A DNA stretch of 48,987 nt, from NCBI GenBank assembly GCA_002734065.2, contig NVXU02000027.1:1-48987 (forward strand), read 5' to 3'. This document shows, in pieces, positions 1 through 8,076 of this stretch. The notes below the pieces were generated by a model. The model was not told where the DNA came from. It saw only the letters and a program-made list of their open reading frames with translations, and did not search any database. The translations under genes were made by a program, and so were the position numbers. Each line of letters starts with the position of its first letter. Positions within the stretch are counted from its first letter, which is position 1. Source of the stretch: Fluviicola sp. GTDB taxonomy: Bacteria; Bacteroidota; Bacteroidia; Flavobacteriales_D; Crocinitomicaceae.

Positions 1-20
1 ATATGCATACTCATATCCAT
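1..20 (-). CDS. 5' end of an unidentified gene running off the left edge
   Basis: On the minus strand an ATG at 18-20 is preceded by an AAGGA Shine-Dalgarno element five bases upstream. Only six codons (MDMSMH) lie in the window, so the product cannot be named. The call rests only on the start signal. Confidence 0.35.
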
Positions 21-173
21 AATAATCCTTTTTTATAGAAGTTTACAGAAATTTTCATTAATACCTTGTGAGATAAATCTTATGAGGCTCTATATGTAAG
101 TAATGCCAAAGAGATAGCCCAAAAGAGTGCTGATAAGAACCATCCCAGATTGGTTTGAGTTAAGTATGAAGAG

Positions 174-950
174 TTATATAGCGAGTCTTATTCCAACTGG
201 ACAATGATCACTTCCAGTTATATAGTCTAAAATAAATGCATCTTCAAGAGACTCACATAAGTCTTCACTTATAAAGAAGTAGTCAATTCTCCAGCCTACA
301 TTTTTGAGTCTAGCACTTGAACGGTAGCTCCACCAGCTGTATCTGTCAGCTTCGTCTCCATTTACGTATCTAAATGTATCCACATACCCATGGTCGAGTA
401 GTTTATCTATCCACTCACGTTCTATTGGTAAGAAGCCTGATGTTTTAGAGTTTGCTTTTGGATTTTTAAGGTCTTGTTCTTTATGGGCAGTATTTACATC
501 TCCACAGATAACTATACTTTTTCCCTCTTCTCTTAATTTCTCACAATGAGTCAGTAAGTCATCATAAAACTTCATCTTGTAATCAAGTCTCTCTTGATTC
601 TTTTGACCATTTGGAAAGTAGATGTTAAAGAGTACTATGTCATCGTAGTGAGTCTCAACTATACGACCCTCATTCATAGTATCTATATGGTTGTCAGTAG
701 AGTTGTAATCACTCTTTAACATAGAAAATGTAGCAGTTCCACTATAACCTTTTTTCTCTGCTGAGTTAACATGTAACTCTTTATACTCTTTATCAAATAA
801 ACCATCAGGTATCTGTTCAGGAAGGGCTTTTATCTCTTGAAGACAAAGTATGTCAGTTTCACGTTCATCTATCCATTTAAGCGCTTCTTTTGTGTGCACA
901 GCACGAATACCATTGACATTCCACGAGATTATTTCTATTGAGTCTGACAT
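174..950 (-). CDS. xth: Exonuclease III (AP endonuclease)
   Basis: 258-residue member of the exonuclease III/AP endonuclease family, which cuts the backbone 5' of abasic sites and removes 3'-blocking groups in base excision repair. The sequence shows the family motifs in order: NVNGIRA near residue 11, LQEIK with the metal-binding Glu near 39, GDVNTAH near 150, the substrate-contacting YSWWSYR, WRIDYFF and the C-terminal SDHCPVGI with the catalytic His at about 249. Length is normal for the family. It is monocistronic in appearance, lying downstream of the sdh genes on the same strand with about 75 bases between. Identification is secure; the exact start (ATG at 950) is supported by the motif spacing. 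Confidence 0.95.
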   Translation of the reverse strand: MSDSIEIISWNVNGIRAVHTKEALKWIDERETDILCLQEIKALPEQIPDGLFDKEYKELHVNSAEKKGYSGTATFSMLKSDYNSTDNHIDTMNEGRIVETHYDDIVLFNIYFPNGQKNQERLDYKMKFYDDLLTHCEKLREEGKSIVICGDVNTAHKEQDLKNPKANSKTSGFLPIEREWIDKLLDHGYVDTFRYVNGDEADRYSWWSYRSSARLKNVGWRIDYFFISEDLCESLEDAFILDYITGSDHCPVGIRLAI

Positions 951-993
951 ATTATTTCCATTGTTGAGATTTTAGAGTGTAAAAGTTGAAGGT

Positions 994-1012
994 TTCCCGC
1001 ATAAAACGGGAA
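994..1012 (-). terminator. Putative hairpin terminator after the sdh genes
   Basis: A GC-containing inverted repeat TTCCCG/CGGGAA with a seven-base loop sits just past the stop codon of the last sdh gene and before xth. The following bases on the minus strand are only moderately T-rich, so it may act as an attenuator rather than a strong intrinsic terminator. Confidence 0.35.
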
Positions 1013-1024
1013 GGGAAGAGTAGA

Positions 1025-1906
1025 CTAAACGAAGTCTACTTTTGTAACATGGTGTTTCATACCTAGTGTTTCTGGAGGACAACCAAGTGCAAGACCAATC
1101 ATTTGTTGCATGTGAAGAACTGGAAGTGAAACTTCACGTCCCACTGCTACAGATGCATGATGTGTTTGAGTGTCTAGCTTTAAGTGACAAAGTGGACATG
1201 GAGTTACCATCCAGTCAGCATTACCATCCATTGCACCAGCAATAGCATTTCCAGTTAGAGTAGCAGCAACTTTCGGCGCTTGAAGCTCTGCATGGAAACC
1301 ACAACACTTGTTCTTTTGTTCATAATCAACAGTATTACCACCACATGCGATGATTAAATCATCTAATGAAGTAGGGTTGTAAGAGTTTTCCGGAGTATCA
1401 TGAGTCTCATTTTGAAGCTCTGAAGGACGGATGTTGTGACAACCATAAAAAGGTGCGATATTAAACTGAGAAAGTGGTGTAACAACCATCTTTTTTATCT
1501 TGTCAAGACCGAAGTCATCAATGATAGCATATAAGAAGTGAGTGATTTTAGATGTACCTGCATACACTAAACCAACTTCTTCAAGCTTTTCATTAACTCT
1601 TGCTTTAAGGTCAGCATTGTTATCTAAACGGTGCTTAGTCATAGCAGTATTAAGTTGACAAGTATTACAGATAGTAACCATAGTAAGACCATGTTTCTCT
1701 GCATAAGCGATATTTCTAGCGTTTAAAACTAGAGATAAAAAGTCATCATAATCTTGTAGGTGAGAAGCTCCGCAACATGAAGCTTCTGTAAGTTCTACTA
1801 GTTCGATATCTAGCTTTTCAGCAACTGCCATAGTTGACATCATTTGCTCAGGTGTACTTTGTTTAGCAGTACATCCTGTAAAAAGTGCGTATTTTAATTT
1901 TCCCAT
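1025..1906 (-). CDS. sdhE: Succinate dehydrogenase/fumarate reductase CCG-domain subunit (SdhE/HdrB-like)
   Basis: 293-residue subunit that replaces the cytochrome b anchor of classical complex II in the non-classical (type E) enzymes of Campylobacterota and archaea. It carries two CCG domains: C12, CC44-45, C80/C83 and C156, CC201-202, C237/C240, each of the C-Xn-CC-Xn-CXXC form that binds a non-cubane Fe-S cluster in the HdrB family. No transmembrane span is evident. It ends the sdhA-sdhB-sdhE operon, starting 9 bases after sdhB. In Wolinella the equivalent trio acts as methylmenaquinol:fumarate reductase (MfrABE), but MfrA there is Tat-exported; the SdhA here shows no Tat signal, so a cytoplasmic complex is inferred. 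The symbol is not the SdhE flavinylation factor. Confidence 0.9.
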   Translation of the reverse strand: MGKLKYALFTGCTAKQSTPEQMMSTMAVAEKLDIELVELTEASCCGASHLQDYDDFLSLVLNARNIAYAEKHGLTMVTICNTCQLNTAMTKHRLDNNADLKARVNEKLEEVGLVYAGTSKITHFLYAIIDDFGLDKIKKMVVTPLSQFNIAPFYGCHNIRPSELQNETHDTPENSYNPTSLDDLIIACGGNTVDYEQKNKCCGFHAELQAPKVAATLTGNAIAGAMDGNADWMVTPCPLCHLKLDTQTHHASVAVGREVSLPVLHMQQMIGLALGCPPETLGMKHHVTKVDFV

Positions 1907-1915
1907 TATCTACTC

Positions 1916-2893
1916 CTAGAACTTTGCAGTTGATGAAGATTTTACAAGTTTTTGAATCTCATCAAGGTTATCTGATTTTATAATGCCCCATGGTGGAACA
2001 ATTTTACCTTTGCTAAACATTTTAAGTGCAACCGGTACATGTTTTACGATTCCAGCTAACTCAGAGTAAAGTACTAAACCACCCTCATCAAGAACACCAT
2101 TGCGTTTGATTGATTTTTCAAATCCAACAGCATGACGCGTTGCTACATTTGAGTTTGCTTGACCTGATTGGAAAAGCATATTGTGTAGTTTACCAATCTT
2201 TTCAATCGGATTAATCTCTTTTGGACATGCCTCAGCACACTCAAAACATTTTACACAATCCCAAACACCTGAACCCATCTGGTTCACGTCTGTAAGTCTT
2301 GAGTCATTTCCATCACGAACATCAGCTTCAAATCTATAAGCCGCTGCAAATGCAGCTGGACCCATAAACGCATCACTAATCTCAACAACAGGACAAGCAT
2401 AGTGACAAGCACCACACTGAATACATAAATCAGCTTCGTCTAGTGCATTTGCCTGTGCAGGAGTTACTAGGTTTTCAGCTGTTGGATTTTCATCAATTTC
2501 TGTATCAAGATAAGGTGTTACTGCCTCATGTTTCTCCCAGAAGTCAGCTTTATCAATGATCATATCTTTGATAGCACGCTTTTTACTCAGTGGCTCGATA
2601 GTCAGTTCGTTACCGAAAATTTCAATCATGTCAGTCATAGACTCTTTACAAGCAAGAGTTACACGACCATTTACCTTGATAGCACATGTTCCACAGATAC
2701 CGTGGCGACAAGATCTTCTATATGAAAAACTTCCGTCATGGTCCCATTTGATTCTATTTAAGATGTCTAAAACAACTTCTTCAGAAGTAACATCCATAGA
2801 ATAATTTTCATAGTATGGAAGATAGTCTTCATCAGCATTAAAACGAAATACATTGAAGTTTACTTTTTGTGTATTAATTGTAGTTGTACTCAT
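1916..2893 (-). CDS. sdhB: Succinate dehydrogenase/fumarate reductase iron-sulfur subunit
   Basis: 325-residue electron-transfer subunit. An N-terminal plant-type ferredoxin domain carries C62, C67, C70 and C82 for a [2Fe-2S] cluster (SCRHGICGTC). The helical domain carries two CxxCxxCxxxCP motifs, C157/C160/C163/C167 and C213/C216/C219/C223, typical of type E enzymes, which have two tetranuclear motifs. It passes electrons between the flavin in SdhA and the CCG subunit. It sits between sdhA and sdhE with 18 and 9 base gaps, so one transcript is expected. Its N-terminal stretch VFRFNADEDYLPYYENY is closely mimicked by the divergent gene at 4778, see there. Confidence 0.96.
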   Translation of the reverse strand: MSTTTINTQKVNFNVFRFNADEDYLPYYENYSMDVTSEEVVLDILNRIKWDHDGSFSYRRSCRHGICGTCAIKVNGRVTLACKESMTDMIEIFGNELTIEPLSKKRAIKDMIIDKADFWEKHEAVTPYLDTEIDENPTAENLVTPAQANALDEADLCIQCGACHYACPVVEISDAFMGPAAFAAAYRFEADVRDGNDSRLTDVNQMGSGVWDCVKCFECAEACPKEINPIEKIGKLHNMLFQSGQANSNVATRHAVGFEKSIKRNGVLDEGGLVLYSELAGIVKHVPVALKMFSKGKIVPPWGIIKSDNLDEIQKLVKSSSTAKF

Positions 2894-2911
2894 AAGTTTT
2901 CTATTCCTCTT

Positions 2912-4624
2912 TTAGTAAGTTCTAGCTTTAAGCTCATGTTTGCCTAAAACAACATCCATGTAGTCTAGTTTGATGTTACCATCTTTATCCATATACGCCA
3001 TTGTGTGTTTTAAGAAATCATCATCATTACGAGTATCAAAATCTTCTCTAAAGTGAGCACCACGACTTTCGTTTCTTGCAACAGCAGCCTCTACGATAAA
3101 CATAGAGTAGTCAAGCATATGTCCAAATTCAAGAGATTCTTGCAGTTCAGTATTAAATACTTTTGACTTGTCTTTGATACGGATATTTTTATAACGTCCA
3201 CGAAGCTCTTTTATCTTAGCGATAACGATATCAAGAGTCTCTTTTGTTCTAAATGCACCTGCATTTGCAGTCATACTCTGTTGTAACTCTTCTCTAAGAA
3301 CAGGAACTTTTTCAGAACCGTTGTTCGTTAAAGCCCAGTCGATTTCTGCAAGTGCAGTTGCAGCATCTTCTTGCGTTGCAACACGAAGTTCAATCTTATC
3401 AATCTCTGCAGTCATCGTTTTACCAACGTAGCGACCAAAAAGTAGTGCTTCAAGAACTGAGTTCGCACCAAGACGGTTTGCACCGTGAACAGATACACAA
3501 GAACACTCACCAGCTGCATAAAAACCTTCGATAAGTTCATCATTATTTAAACGAACGTTACCAGCGATATTTACCGGAATACCACCCATAGAGTAGTGTG
3601 CAGTAGCAGAGATAAGGATAGGTTCTTTAATCATGTCAAGACCTAAGAAAGTGATAGCTAACTCACGAAGTTCAGGAAGTCTTTCCATAATGAGGTCTTT
3701 TCCTAAATGTGTTACATCTAAATAAACAGCGTCTTTTCTTGGACCACAACCACGACCTTCTCTGATTTCATTTAAAATAGCACGCGCTACAACATCACGA
3801 GATGCAAGTTCCATAGCATTTGGAGCGTATTTTTCCATAAATCTCTCACCCTTAGAGTTAAAAAGACGTCCACCCTCACCACGAGCAGCTTCAGAGATAA
3901 GTACACCATTACCTGAAAGTCCAGATGGGTGAAACTGTACAAATTCCATATCTTCTAAAGGAAGACCATGACGGGCTACTATAGAAAGACCATCACCAGT
4001 ATTTGCATGAGCATTTGAGTTGATTTTATATGAACGTGCATATCCACCAGTAGCAAACATTACAGATTTAGCGTTAAAAATTGCCATTTGCATATCACGA
4101 ATATTAAATGCGATTACGCCAGATACTTTTCCATCTTTATAGATAATATCAGCTGCATACCACTCATCCCAAAACTTCACACCACAGCGATGAGCTTGCT
4201 CATAAATAGTTTGTAATAAGGTAAGTCCAGTCCTGTCTTTTGCAAAACATGCACGAGGTGATGATTGTCCACCAAATGGACGTTGAGCTATTTTTCCATC
4301 TTCTGTACGAGAAAATGCAGCACCCATACTCTCAGCCCAACGAATTGTCTCCGGAGCTTTTTTACACATAAATTCAACTGCATCTTGATCAGCTAGGTAA
4401 TCAGAACCTTTTACTGTGTCAAATTCGTGAAGTTCAACAGAATCTTCATCACTAAAAGCAGCGTTAACTCCACCTTGAGCTGCACCTGAATGGCTTCTCA
4501 ATGGATGCAATTTAGTAATAACAGCAACTTTTTTTCCTGCATTTTGTAGTTCTCTTGCTGCGGCACATCCGGCAAGACCGGCACCAACAACAATTGCATC
4601 GTAAGTATAAATGGGGATACTCAT
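2912..4624 (-). CDS. sdhA: Succinate dehydrogenase/fumarate reductase flavoprotein subunit
   Basis: Catalytic FAD subunit of the dicarboxylate oxidoreductase. A dinucleotide-binding motif VVGAGLAGCAAA is near the N-terminus, followed by RSHSGAAQGGVNA with the His expected to bind FAD covalently, the active-site block HPSGLSGNG...SEAARGEGG, and the C-terminal GECSCVSVHGANRLGANS. I set the start at the ATG at 4624 (570 residues): an AAAGGA Shine-Dalgarno lies seven to eight bases upstream, and this element falls inside the coding part of the longer alternative that begins at 4642. There is no twin-arginine signal, unlike the Wolinella MfrA protein. First gene of the sdhABE operon; its promoter region is shared with the divergent gene at 4778. 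Confidence 0.96.
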   Translation of the reverse strand: MSIPIYTYDAIVVGAGLAGCAAARELQNAGKKVAVITKLHPLRSHSGAAQGGVNAAFSDEDSVELHEFDTVKGSDYLADQDAVEFMCKKAPETIRWAESMGAAFSRTEDGKIAQRPFGGQSSPRACFAKDRTGLTLLQTIYEQAHRCGVKFWDEWYAADIIYKDGKVSGVIAFNIRDMQMAIFNAKSVMFATGGYARSYKINSNAHANTGDGLSIVARHGLPLEDMEFVQFHPSGLSGNGVLISEAARGEGGRLFNSKGERFMEKYAPNAMELASRDVVARAILNEIREGRGCGPRKDAVYLDVTHLGKDLIMERLPELRELAITFLGLDMIKEPILISATAHYSMGGIPVNIAGNVRLNNDELIEGFYAAGECSCVSVHGANRLGANSVLEALLFGRYVGKTMTAEIDKIELRVATQEDAATALAEIDWALTNNGSEKVPVLREELQQSMTANAGAFRTKETLDIVIAKIKELRGRYKNIRIKDKSKVFNTELQESLEFGHMLDYSMFIVEAAVARNESRGAHFREDFDTRNDDDFLKHTMAYMDKDGNIKLDYMDVVLGKHELKARTY

Positions 4625-4666
4625 TAGCTTTCCTTTGTTCATAAAAATTTATAATAATTACGCGGA

Positions 4667-4777: not shown

Positions 4778-5854
4778 ATGACGAATGAAATAAATGTAGA
4801 GTTGTTTAGGTTTGATGCTAAGCTAGATTACCTACCGTACTATAAAACATATATTATTGAATATAACGATAGAGATACAATTCTAAGTTTATTAAATAAA
4901 GTAAACGCAATAGATAAATTTGACTATGAAGCTACTAATGAGTTTAATATGAAAATAAACAACTTATATCTATCCGCTAAAGAGCATATATCCAATATTG
5001 TTGCTTTAACATCAAATAATTTTAAAATAGAACCAGTTAGTATGTTTAGAGCCACTAGAGATTTACTAATAGATAAAAAAGATTATTTAAAAAATATTTT
5101 AATGTTTGATAAGTTTATAAATCCTATGGAGATGGATGAATATGCTCAAAGTCTTGAGTTAGATTATTATGCATCTAATACATATAACTTCAATAGAGAC
5201 TATATTGGTGACCATGCCTTACTTATTGCTAGTGATATTATAAAACATACACCTGAATTTACTAAAGATATTTTAAAAATAATTTCTGACAAGGCTCATG
5301 GAATCTGGTTCCATACATCATTAAAAAATAGGGTTTTTAATTATGACCTTAAAAAAGAGCAAAAAATACAAAACTTATTGCATATGTTGCCAAAGGCTAA
5401 AAATTCGCAAATAAACAATAGCTCTTTATTAAATATTGATGCAGTAGAAATATCTCAATTTTTTAATGGTTTTAATATAGCTTCTTATGAGGGCATTAGT
5501 AAGGATTCTTGTACATCTCTAATAAACGATTCTAGAGCTTCTTATGTGGAACTAAATCAAAAGTATGAAGACCTAGCCCCTTATTCAACACTTGTAGATA
5601 GTGAATTTTCTTTAAAGATCGCTGGTGAGATTTTACTAGAAGCAAAAGATAATAATGCTGATTTTTTAGTAGTTAGGGGTAATGGTGATATTATGCTTTT
5701 TGATGGAAAACAAAAAAGTATAGAAAAAGCTGTGGGTAGAGAGATACAACTTCCTGTTATAACTCAAAAACAGTTTTCATTATTACTAAGTGGCGAAAAA
5801 GATGTGATTAAGCTAAAGATAAATACTCACAAGGTTAAGGTTTCTTTTCTTTAA
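4778..5854 (+). CDS. Cysteine-less SdhB-SdhE fusion-like protein, function unknown
   Basis: 358 residues. Residues 6-104 follow SdhB of the same locus closely (LFRFDAKLDYLPYYKTY against VFRFNADEDYLPYYENY; NFKIEPVS against ELTIEPLS; RDLLIDKKDYL against KDMIIDKADFW), but all four [2Fe-2S] cysteines are absent. Residues 125-205 resemble its helical domain (GIW..., QKIQNLLHML against EKIGKLHNML) with none of the eight cluster cysteines. Residues 221-358 resemble the C-terminal half of SdhE (NADFLVV against NADWMVT; AVGREIQLPV against AVGREVSLPV; a matching HKVKVSFL end). The only cysteine is C245, which falls near the CC pair of the second CCG domain. It is divergent from sdhA. I infer a cofactor-free paralogue used in assembly, regulation or as a structural decoy; it may match an existing DUF family. 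No catalytic role is claimed. Confidence 0.85.
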   Translation: MTNEINVELFRFDAKLDYLPYYKTYIIEYNDRDTILSLLNKVNAIDKFDYEATNEFNMKINNLYLSAKEHISNIVALTSNNFKIEPVSMFRATRDLLIDKKDYLKNILMFDKFINPMEMDEYAQSLELDYYASNTYNFNRDYIGDHALLIASDIIKHTPEFTKDILKIISDKAHGIWFHTSLKNRVFNYDLKKEQKIQNLLHMLPKAKNSQINNSSLLNIDAVEISQFFNGFNIASYEGISKDSCTSLINDSRASYVELNQKYEDLAPYSTLVDSEFSLKIAGEILLEAKDNNADFLVVRGNGDIMLFDGKQKSIEKAVGREIQLPVITQKQFSLLLSGEKDVIKLKINTHKVKVSFL

Positions 5855-6059: not shown

Positions 6060-6878
6060 TTGAATTTAGAAAATTATTTTATATCCCAGTTTAATAGCAA
6101 ATATATTGGCGATGACGCAGCTGTAATTGGTACACATATCTACTCAAAAGATGCCTTTTTTGAGAATGTTCATTTTAAGAGAAAATGGATGAGTTTTAGA
6201 CAAATATCATCTAAGGCTATGTATGTAAACATTTCAGATGCTGTAGCTATGAATGCTAAGCCTAGATACGCACTTTTAAGTGTAGCTATGCCTAAGTCAA
6301 TGACTAAGACTGATATGCAAGAATTAGCCTTAGGTTTTAAAGATGTAGCATCTGAATTTGGAATAGAGATTATTGGTGGGGATACTATAAGTAATACCAA
6401 ACTTGACATTACTATTACAATTATCTCCGAAACTAAAAAAGCTTTACTTAGACGTGGTTTAAGAAAAAATCATCTTTTGGCATATACGGGTAAACTTGGA
6501 CAATCTGCAAAAGACTTGAAAAAGTTAATGAATTTAGGTACTTTGCATAAAAAATCAAAATTTGTAAATATACAGCTAAGAGATAAGTTTGTTAATAATG
6601 TATCTCGTAATTTAAGTGCAGGTATGGATATATCTGATGGTTTATTTTCAGATTTAGACAAGCTGGCATCTATAAATAAACTAGGATTTAAATTCTTAAA
6701 AAAAATACCTAAATCAATAGGGTGCAGCGGTGAAGAATATGAAATGTTAGTCTCATTTGATAAAAGAAATAAAAAAGCAGTTTTAAGAAAAGCTAAACAA
6801 AGCAGGCTGGAGATAAATATTTTTGCATCAGCTTTTAGAAATAGATATATTAACAGATGTAAGGCTCATCATTTTTAA
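6060..6878 (+). CDS. thiL: Thiamine-monophosphate kinase
   Basis: 272-residue ATP-dependent kinase that phosphorylates thiamine monophosphate to thiamine diphosphate. It belongs to the PurM/SelD/ThiL-type ATP-binding fold: GDDAAVIG at residues 17-24 supplies metal-binding acids, ISDAVAMNA and IIGGDTIS follow, then AYTGKLGQS, MDISDGLFSDL and the C-terminal SGEEYEML. It is shorter than the roughly 320 residues of enterobacterial ThiL, which fits my recollection of Campylobacterota proteins. The start is a TTG at 6060, chosen because the family N-terminus is reproduced; the ribosome site (AAGAAG) is weak. It is followed by truD after a 118-base gap. No thiamine riboswitch was recognised upstream. 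Confidence 0.85.
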   Translation: MNLENYFISQFNSKYIGDDAAVIGTHIYSKDAFFENVHFKRKWMSFRQISSKAMYVNISDAVAMNAKPRYALLSVAMPKSMTKTDMQELALGFKDVASEFGIEIIGGDTISNTKLDITITIISETKKALLRRGLRKNHLLAYTGKLGQSAKDLKKLMNLGTLHKKSKFVNIQLRDKFVNNVSRNLSAGMDISDGLFSDLDKLASINKLGFKFLKKIPKSIGCSGEEYEMLVSFDKRNKKAVLRKAKQSRLEINIFASAFRNRYINRCKAHHF

Positions 6879-6996: not shown

Positions 6997-8076
6997 ATGG
7001 ATAGATTTTATTCACTTAACCACTCTAGTATAGATTTTCATTTTAGACAAAGTCCTAGAGACTTCGTAGTTGAAGAACTTCCATTATATGAATTCTCAGG
7101 TGAGGGCGAACACCTTGTTTTATTTGTAAGAAAAAAGAATATGTCTACACTTGAGCTTGTTGGTGCAATAGCTAGATACTTAAACATTAAAAATAGAGAT
7201 ATTGGTTATGCTGGCTTAAAAGATAAACATGCAATGACTAAGCAGTATATATCTTTACATAAAAAATATGAAGCTGACCTAGAAAACTTCAACCATGAAA
7301 ATGTAAAAATCATCTCTAAAACTTACCATAATAATAAGATAAGAATAGGGCACTTAAAAGGTAATAGGTTTTATATAAAACTTAAAAAAGTAAACCCTAC
7401 CTCTGCACAAAAGATAGATGAGGCACTTAAAAATCTAAAATCTCAAGGCATGCCAAACTTTTTTGGTTATCAGAGATTTGGAAATGATGGAGATAATCAT
7501 ATACTTGGTGAGCAAATTGCTAAGGGTGAAAAAAAAGAGCGTAACCCTAAGATAAAAAAACTTCTTATAAATTCTTATCAGTCCCACCTTTTTAATTTAT
7601 GGTTAAGTAGAAGATTAGAGATTAATAAACTAGTTAATAATTTTGAAGCTAAGGACTTAGAGGAACTTTTAAACTTACCAAATCATGAGATAGAAAAAAT
7701 GAAAGCTCAAAAACATTATTTTAAACTTATAAGTGGTGATATTATGGAACATTATCCGTATGGAAGATTGTTTAACTTTGAGGGTGATGAAAATGATTTT
7801 GATAGGTTTAACAACAAAGATATCTCTGTAACTGGCTTGCTTTGTGGTTCTAAAGTTAAAACTGCTTGTGATAATGCTAGGTCTATAGAAAAAGACTTTG
7901 ATGATGAGATTAATGCTGATGGTGCTAGAAGGTATGCGTGGGTCTTTCCAGAAAAAGTTGAGGGTAGGTTTAATCAAGTTGAAGCTCAGTATGAGTTAAA
8001 CTTTTCTCTTCCAAAAGGCTCATATGCTACTGTACTTATAGAAGAGTTAGCTAAACGTAAGATAAATGAAAAATAG
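6997..8076 (+). CDS. truD: tRNA pseudouridine(13) synthase TruD
   Basis: 359 residues. TruD converts U13 of certain tRNAs to pseudouridine. The family signature GYAGLKDKHAMTKQYIS is at residues 70-86 with the catalytic Asp at 76, and the conserved NFFGYQRFG follows near residue 155. The C-terminal half contains the family insertion domain. Start ATG is preceded by AAAGGGAC. It lies between thiL and psd on the same strand, with 16 bases to psd, so co-transcription with psd is likely. Confidence 0.93.
   Translation: MDRFYSLNHSSIDFHFRQSPRDFVVEELPLYEFSGEGEHLVLFVRKKNMSTLELVGAIARYLNIKNRDIGYAGLKDKHAMTKQYISLHKKYEADLENFNHENVKIISKTYHNNKIRIGHLKGNRFYIKLKKVNPTSAQKIDEALKNLKSQGMPNFFGYQRFGNDGDNHILGEQIAKGEKKERNPKIKKLLINSYQSHLFNLWLSRRLEINKLVNNFEAKDLEELLNLPNHEIEKMKAQKHYFKLISGDIMEHYPYGRLFNFEGDENDFDRFNNKDISVTGLLCGSKVKTACDNARSIEKDFDDEINADGARRYAWVFPEKVEGRFNQVEAQYELNFSLPKGSYATVLIEELAKRKINEK

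Follow-up and report, generated by a model that had tools for sequence, protein, structure and literature searches.

The 48,987-base contig NVXU02000027.1, taken whole and referred to below as the window, carries an open reading frame (ORF 4778-5854, ATG start) whose product was found to belong to a family homologous to the succinate dehydrogenase subunits SdhB and SdhE. The family occurs across the Campylobacterota class, is under selection and lacks the ligands of the iron-sulphur (Fe-S) clusters. Residues 1-210 of the window protein are almost certainly homologous to SdhB, and residues 225-358 to the C-terminal half of SdhE, as judged from alignments and profiles. The protein may act as a non-redox pseudo-subunit that binds other proteins, and complexes of the SdhA/FrdA type are tentatively put forward as our best guess at the partner.

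An ordered alignment with SdhB and then with the C-terminal half of SdhE had been reported in a first-pass annotation of the window, and was reproduced here. In BLASTP, the window protein shared 30% identity over 117 positions with the window SdhB (E 7e-18) and 27% over 112 positions with the window SdhE (E 4e-9), both E values being those of single comparisons. Profile-profile comparison with hhalign gave 99.7% probability and E 5e-27 over 212 columns for SdhB (residues 1-210), and 98.2% and E 4e-14 over 131 columns for SdhE (residues 225-358). The strings DYLPYY, IEP.S, GRE..LPV and NAD, largely as noted in the first pass, are common to the window protein and SdhB or SdhE. A structure model matched the SdhB/FrdB and HdrB folds, and hhalign and the model together support the two-domain fold of SdhB/FrdB in the N-terminal part; the fold of PDB entry 3kwl (Helicobacter pylori) was also matched. 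As the alignment behind this model consisted of 21 rows that included SdhB and SdhE sequences (4 orthologues, 8 SdhB pieces and 9 SdhE pieces), the model is biased towards such folds. Scores of 47-52 were obtained for four of the five versions. An earlier model from the four orthologues alone had a predicted local distance difference test score (pLDDT) of 49.5 and was left out of the fold search.

The family is already catalogued in Pfam as Fer2_3 + DUF5644 + HdrB-like_C, in line with the suggestion in the first pass that a domain of unknown function (DUF) might exist for it. Among 34 aligned members, HdrB-like_C (PF22196) was found in 32 and DUF5644 (PF18712) in 31, both at E <= 0.01, and Fer2_3 in 23; four further Pfam models were each matched by one or two of the 34 at E 5e-4 or worse. 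All three family domains exceed their cut-offs in the window protein (Table 1). The window protein resembles the SdhB/FrdB iron-sulphur subunit in having homologues of its ferredoxin and dicluster domains, but differs in the absence of cluster ligands and in the gapped [2Fe-2S] loop region, and it scored only 22.3 bits against the SdhB/FrdB model TIGR00384 (dhsB; cut-off 88). The likeness to SdhE of the E-type complex II and to the CCG domains of HdrB is restricted to the second domain; the first CCG domain is missing, no match to PF02754 was obtained, and on alignment with SdhE a single domain with neither the cysteine pair (CC) nor CXXC was seen.

The window SdhB has 12 cysteines, and none of the 12 is retained in the window protein. 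No cysteine is present in its Fer2_3 domain or in its DUF5644 domain, which aligns with the SdhB dicluster domain, and both CC and CXXC have been lost from its HdrB-like_C domain, so that the reported loss of all SdhB cluster cysteines and of the SdhE CXXC was borne out and extends to CC. Cys245 is indeed the sole cysteine of the protein, as first noted, but it does not lie near the former CC pair, which aligns with residues 265-266, about 20 residues further towards the C-terminus. A cysteine occurs at the position of Cys245 in 9 of 44 aligned family rows, and the largest cysteine column among these rows holds 16.

The same loss was seen throughout the family. In 93 N-terminal halves, each SdhB cysteine column contained cysteine in 0 to 4 sequences, no sequence kept more than one, and the [2Fe-2S] loop columns were mostly gapped. 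In 77 C-terminal halves (25 split, 43 short-fused and 9 of 24 long-fused), the columns of the 12 SdhE cysteines had counts of 0 to 9, again with at most one kept per sequence. None of the relatives examined retains the ligand set, and the proposal of a fold kept without its ligands is upheld by hhalign, the structure model and the 93 N-terminal halves. Residues other than cysteine are strongly conserved in the 34 members, for example D17, Y22, N61, Y131, G144, D291, D295 and R321. One locus (L189), a weak PF18712 match with no similarity to the family, was included in the 44-row alignment and excluded from the counts of SdhB and SdhE cysteine columns, from the neighbour counts and from the substitution analysis.

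By length, the 93 members can be sorted into 26 short first ORFs (208-270 amino acids, aa), 43 short fusions (323-410 aa), among them the window gene, and 24 long forms (495-563 aa). Next on the same strand after 25 of the 26 short first ORFs comes a complete ORF of 211-303 aa; the remaining one (L149) precedes a cut ORF of 402 aa. At 19 of these 26 loci (L192-L210), those compared by BLAST, the second ORF matched the C-terminal part of the family or SdhE. The columns of the first SdhE domain are missing from the short fusions and kept in the long forms. At two loci (L193 and L207), the halves are separate ORFs that share a frame and are divided by a stop, the gaps being 12 and 9 bases; such an arrangement could have arisen from a fused gene by splitting or could reflect the opposite change.

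In trees of 28 rows, the N-terminal halves of the family formed one group (96/91), as did the C-terminal halves (100/99), and a 98/92 branch placed the N-terminal halves with Sdh-type SdhB, apart from FrdB and MfrB; neither tree is rooted, and several of the family rows are long. As each half is one old class-wide group, the split from SdhB and SdhE seems to be older than the spread of the class. The view of the window gene as a local duplicate of the neighbouring sdhB and sdhE, which the wording of the first-pass annotation suggested, was therefore rejected on these trees, and many lineages carry the halves as separate genes. The ratio of nonsynonymous to synonymous substitution (dN/dS) was 0.05-0.29 in seven listed pairs with identity >= 0.90 and reached 0.80 in distant pairs, for which dS approaches or exceeds saturation; these values indicate purifying selection.

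The distribution was examined in 298 genomes of the class, taken in a single draw centred on G317, together with 14 control genomes. PF18712 was matched at E <= 1e-3 in 156 of the 298, 13 of them below its cut-off and 143 above, and in none of the controls. Profile A1 was matched in 249 genomes at E <= 1e-5, SdhB and SdhE being among those matches, and in 118 at E <= 1e-50. Taking A1 at E <= 1e-50 or PF18712 as the mark of the family, 190 of 298 genomes (about two thirds) are carriers, 34 of which were added by A1, indicating that PF18712 by itself misses members. Outside the class, the phylum and the relatives of the window's own assembly were searched and no orthologue was found besides the window gene itself; 6 of 247 genomes of the phylum matched, five of them weakly (E 2.5e-5 or worse), and 1 of 60 relatives. 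A first scan of the genome contigs with the window protein itself gave no match.

SdhE was detected by protein search (E <= 1e-20) in 116 genomes, of which 71 were classed as Sdh-type (E under 1e-79) and 45 as Mfr-type (37-41% identical). The family gene is present in only 15 of the 71 Sdh-type genomes and absent from 56, whereas 175 of the 227 genomes without an Sdh-type SdhE carry it. It was also found in 39 of the 45 Mfr-type genomes, in 177 of 235 genomes with FrdC (NF010072) and in 13 of 63 lacking FrdC. The genomes are related, and Fisher tests on these counts are accordingly not independent evidence. At the thresholds used, FrdC, SdhE and MfrE are all missing from two carriers (G501 and G527). 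The family is therefore neither needed by nor limited to sdhABE, and the strict tie to sdhABE raised in the first pass was rejected on these counts; adjacency, where both are present, stood. At named sdhE loci, a member lies beside sdhABE in 3 of 80, several of these loci being too short to tell, and a whole-genome search of 50 of those 80 genomes found a clear member in four; a weak match in genome G311 (L257) yielded no family ORF.

In the window, the gene and sdhA are divergent with 135 bases between them, and thiL and truD lie immediately 3' of the gene (Table 1). NCBIfam identified the neighbouring genes of the window as those for thiamine-phosphate kinase, TruD, phosphatidylserine decarboxylase and exodeoxyribonuclease III. 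The window SdhE matched NF042965 and TIGR03288, both below cut-off, and at gathering scores the window had no Rfam match. The passages of PMC2680327 on the E-type SdhABE complex describe an SdhE with 10 cysteines.

Table 1. Location of the family gene, its domains and its neighbours in the window.
Feature	Coordinates	Strand	Basis
DUF5644-family protein, 358 aa, cofactor-free, SdhB-SdhE-like	4778..5854	+	ORF, Pfam, homology
Fer2_3 (ferredoxin-like N-domain of SdhB/FrdB), residues 7-103	4796..5086	+	PF13085, 28.7 bits (cut-off 27)
DUF5644 domain, residues 106-205	5093..5392	+	PF18712, 36.6 bits (cut-off 25)
HdrB-like_C (HdrB-like C-terminal domain), residues 273-352	5594..5833	+	PF22196, 35.1 bits (cut-off 33.4)
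sdhA, flavoprotein subunit, divergent neighbour	2912..4642	-	TIGR01812, above cut-off
sdhB, iron-sulphur subunit, 12 Cys	1916..2893	-	
sdhE, subunit with two CCG domains, 12 Cys	1025..1906	-	PF02754, two stretches
thiL, thiamine-phosphate kinase	6060..6878	+	NF004354, above cut-off
truD, tRNA pseudouridine(13) synthase	6997..8076	+	NF002154, above cut-off

Among the 15 genomes with both the gene and an Sdh-type SdhE, the gene adjoins sdhA in 11 (L025, L158, L159, L170, L173, L188, L190 and L247-L250), lies in the sdh block but beyond thiL/truD in two (L251 and L252; the ORF labels of L252 give sdhE, not sdhA or sdhB), and is on a different contig from sdhABE in two (G342 and G562). Three of these loci (L025, L159 and L173) have the divergent layout of the window, indicating that the window arrangement is real. 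At L158, the gene is co-directional with sdhA and overlaps it by four bases, with no thiL in the 12 kb fetched, and at L046 and L068 it adjoins sdhABE on the opposite side. As an sdhABE block is found near thiL even where the family gene is not present (L012), the linkage, though real where both occur, partly reflects a common thiL/truD neighbourhood.

Neighbours within four ORFs were counted at 73 hand-chosen, non-random loci, a set to which the 30 short loci L122-L151 and L257 do not belong. The commonest family neighbour was thiL; thiL or truD was present at 49 loci, an sdhA-like gene at 15 (at L199 only 38% identical to SdhA), flgI at 13, a pepF-like gene at 9 and murA at 8. The reference genes for this count were named using NCBIfam. 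At nine loci (L195, L198, L201-L204, L206, L210 and L211), the family gene or pair lies between a gene for 154-178 aa, which comes after the pepF-like gene, and one for a protein of 91-104 aa; the L204 copies of both flanking proteins had no Pfam match above cut-off. A protein of 108-134 aa is encoded directly 3' of the family gene or second half at 17 of the 73 loci, including L161 (6143-6526), where the copy has no Pfam match.

The window is apparently a Sulfurimonas (Campylobacterota) contig that has strayed into an assembly from another phylum. The SdhE of the window and that of Sulfurimonas NORP9 are 100% identical, and there are 4 mismatches to NORP9 in positions 1-3817 and 120 in 3818-4635; past 4635, blastn found no match up to 6049 and then 71-77% identity. 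The break at ~3818, inside sdhA, marks either recombination or a chimeric join. As sdhB and sdhE are to the left of it, the cell line from which they derive may differ from that of the ORF. The 3.49-Mb assembly seems to belong to the other phylum, since a second AspS, 45% identical, is encoded on another contig (C6) and the other 59 relatives gave no SdhB match at E 1e-3. A 16S search of the assembly gave no match.

We infer that the family goes back to duplication of one sdhBE unit. Among the ancestors of the class, an old duplicate of an sdhB-sdhE pair would have lost its Fe-S ligands and remained under selection, and in the window lineage the halves would have been fused with the first SdhE domain left out. 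Such a protein would no longer move electrons and would act through protein-protein binding, the most likely target being the flavoprotein or assembly intermediates of the succinate dehydrogenase/fumarate reductase superfamily, and its role would be that of an optional maturation or regulatory factor, not an essential subunit. The co-occurrence with Sdh-type SdhE expected of an SdhABE subunit or assembly factor was not seen in the 298 genomes.

A partner unrelated to SdhA/FrdA-type complexes is nearly as likely. It is quite possible that the SdhB/SdhE-like fold has been repurposed for some function outside the succinate and fumarate enzymes, for example as a housekeeping adaptor, the linkage to sdh being a relic of its birthplace and of the shared thiL/truD neighbourhood. 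The neighbour counts at the 73 loci (thiL or truD far ahead of sdhA-like genes, flgI, pepF-like genes and murA), the anti-correlation with Sdh-type SdhE and the two carriers without FrdC, SdhE or MfrE are consistent with this, but adjacency to sdhABE in 11 of 15 co-carriers, including the overlapping L158, and on the other flank at L046 and L068, argues against it.

It is unlikely that the metal-free look-alikes are a maturation or control factor of FrdA, SdhA or MfrA that holds the site of the Fe-S subunit until flavinylation or cluster loading is finished. The flavinylation factor SdhE/YgfY/Sdh5 (PF03937) is a small protein that aids complex II maturation; it shares its name with the CCG-type SdhE, a different protein, and is likened to the window protein in function alone, with no homology claimed. 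PF03937 was not matched above cut-off in any of the 298 genomes (there were two weak matches, E 4.5e-4 and 6.3e-4), and among the 14 controls E. coli and Caulobacter matched. This leaves room for a maturation role and does not show one. It is equally doubtful that the pockets emptied of clusters bind another ligand or cofactor, as in a sensor or enzyme; the conservation of non-cysteine residues would fit, but Pfam found no ligand-binding domain among the 34 members. An extra or replacing stoichiometric subunit of SdhABE is improbable, as 175 of 190 carriers lack an Sdh-type SdhE and most Sdh-type genomes lack the gene, despite the adjacency in the window and the 11 genomes and the SdhB- and SdhE-like halves. 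Decay or a sequencing artefact, which the cysteine loss alone could suggest, can be dismissed given the low dN/dS of close pairs, on which decay was rejected, the open frames of all 43 fused members, the absence of the ligand set from every one of the 93 N-terminal halves and the solved structure of a relative (3kwl).

HP0468 is given as a DUF5644 protein in a table of PMC9570263, and the passages on it in PMC6090961 count it among the gene variants linked to gastric cancer risk, describe it as of undetermined function and poorly conserved outside Helicobacter, and state from a cited paper that molecular hydrogen raises its expression. In the genomes surveyed here, the family extends far beyond Helicobacter. 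PMC3397514 lists 3KWL as an X-ray structure without known function; judging by species, length and DUF, 3kwl is probably HP0468, although the two papers name them separately. It differs from the window protein in length (514 versus 358 residues), and the first-domain SdhE columns absent from short fusions are present in long forms. No functional study of the family was recognised in the open-licence PMC literature on DUF5644, HP0468 and 3KWL. Nor was any paper found under Cj1459 or Cj1460, presumably names for members. An unexplained H. pylori structure and a DUF thus become a defined question, namely why about two thirds of the 298 genomes keep a respiratory-subunit fold without its ligands, and the split and fused forms and their ancestry point towards partners that can be tested.
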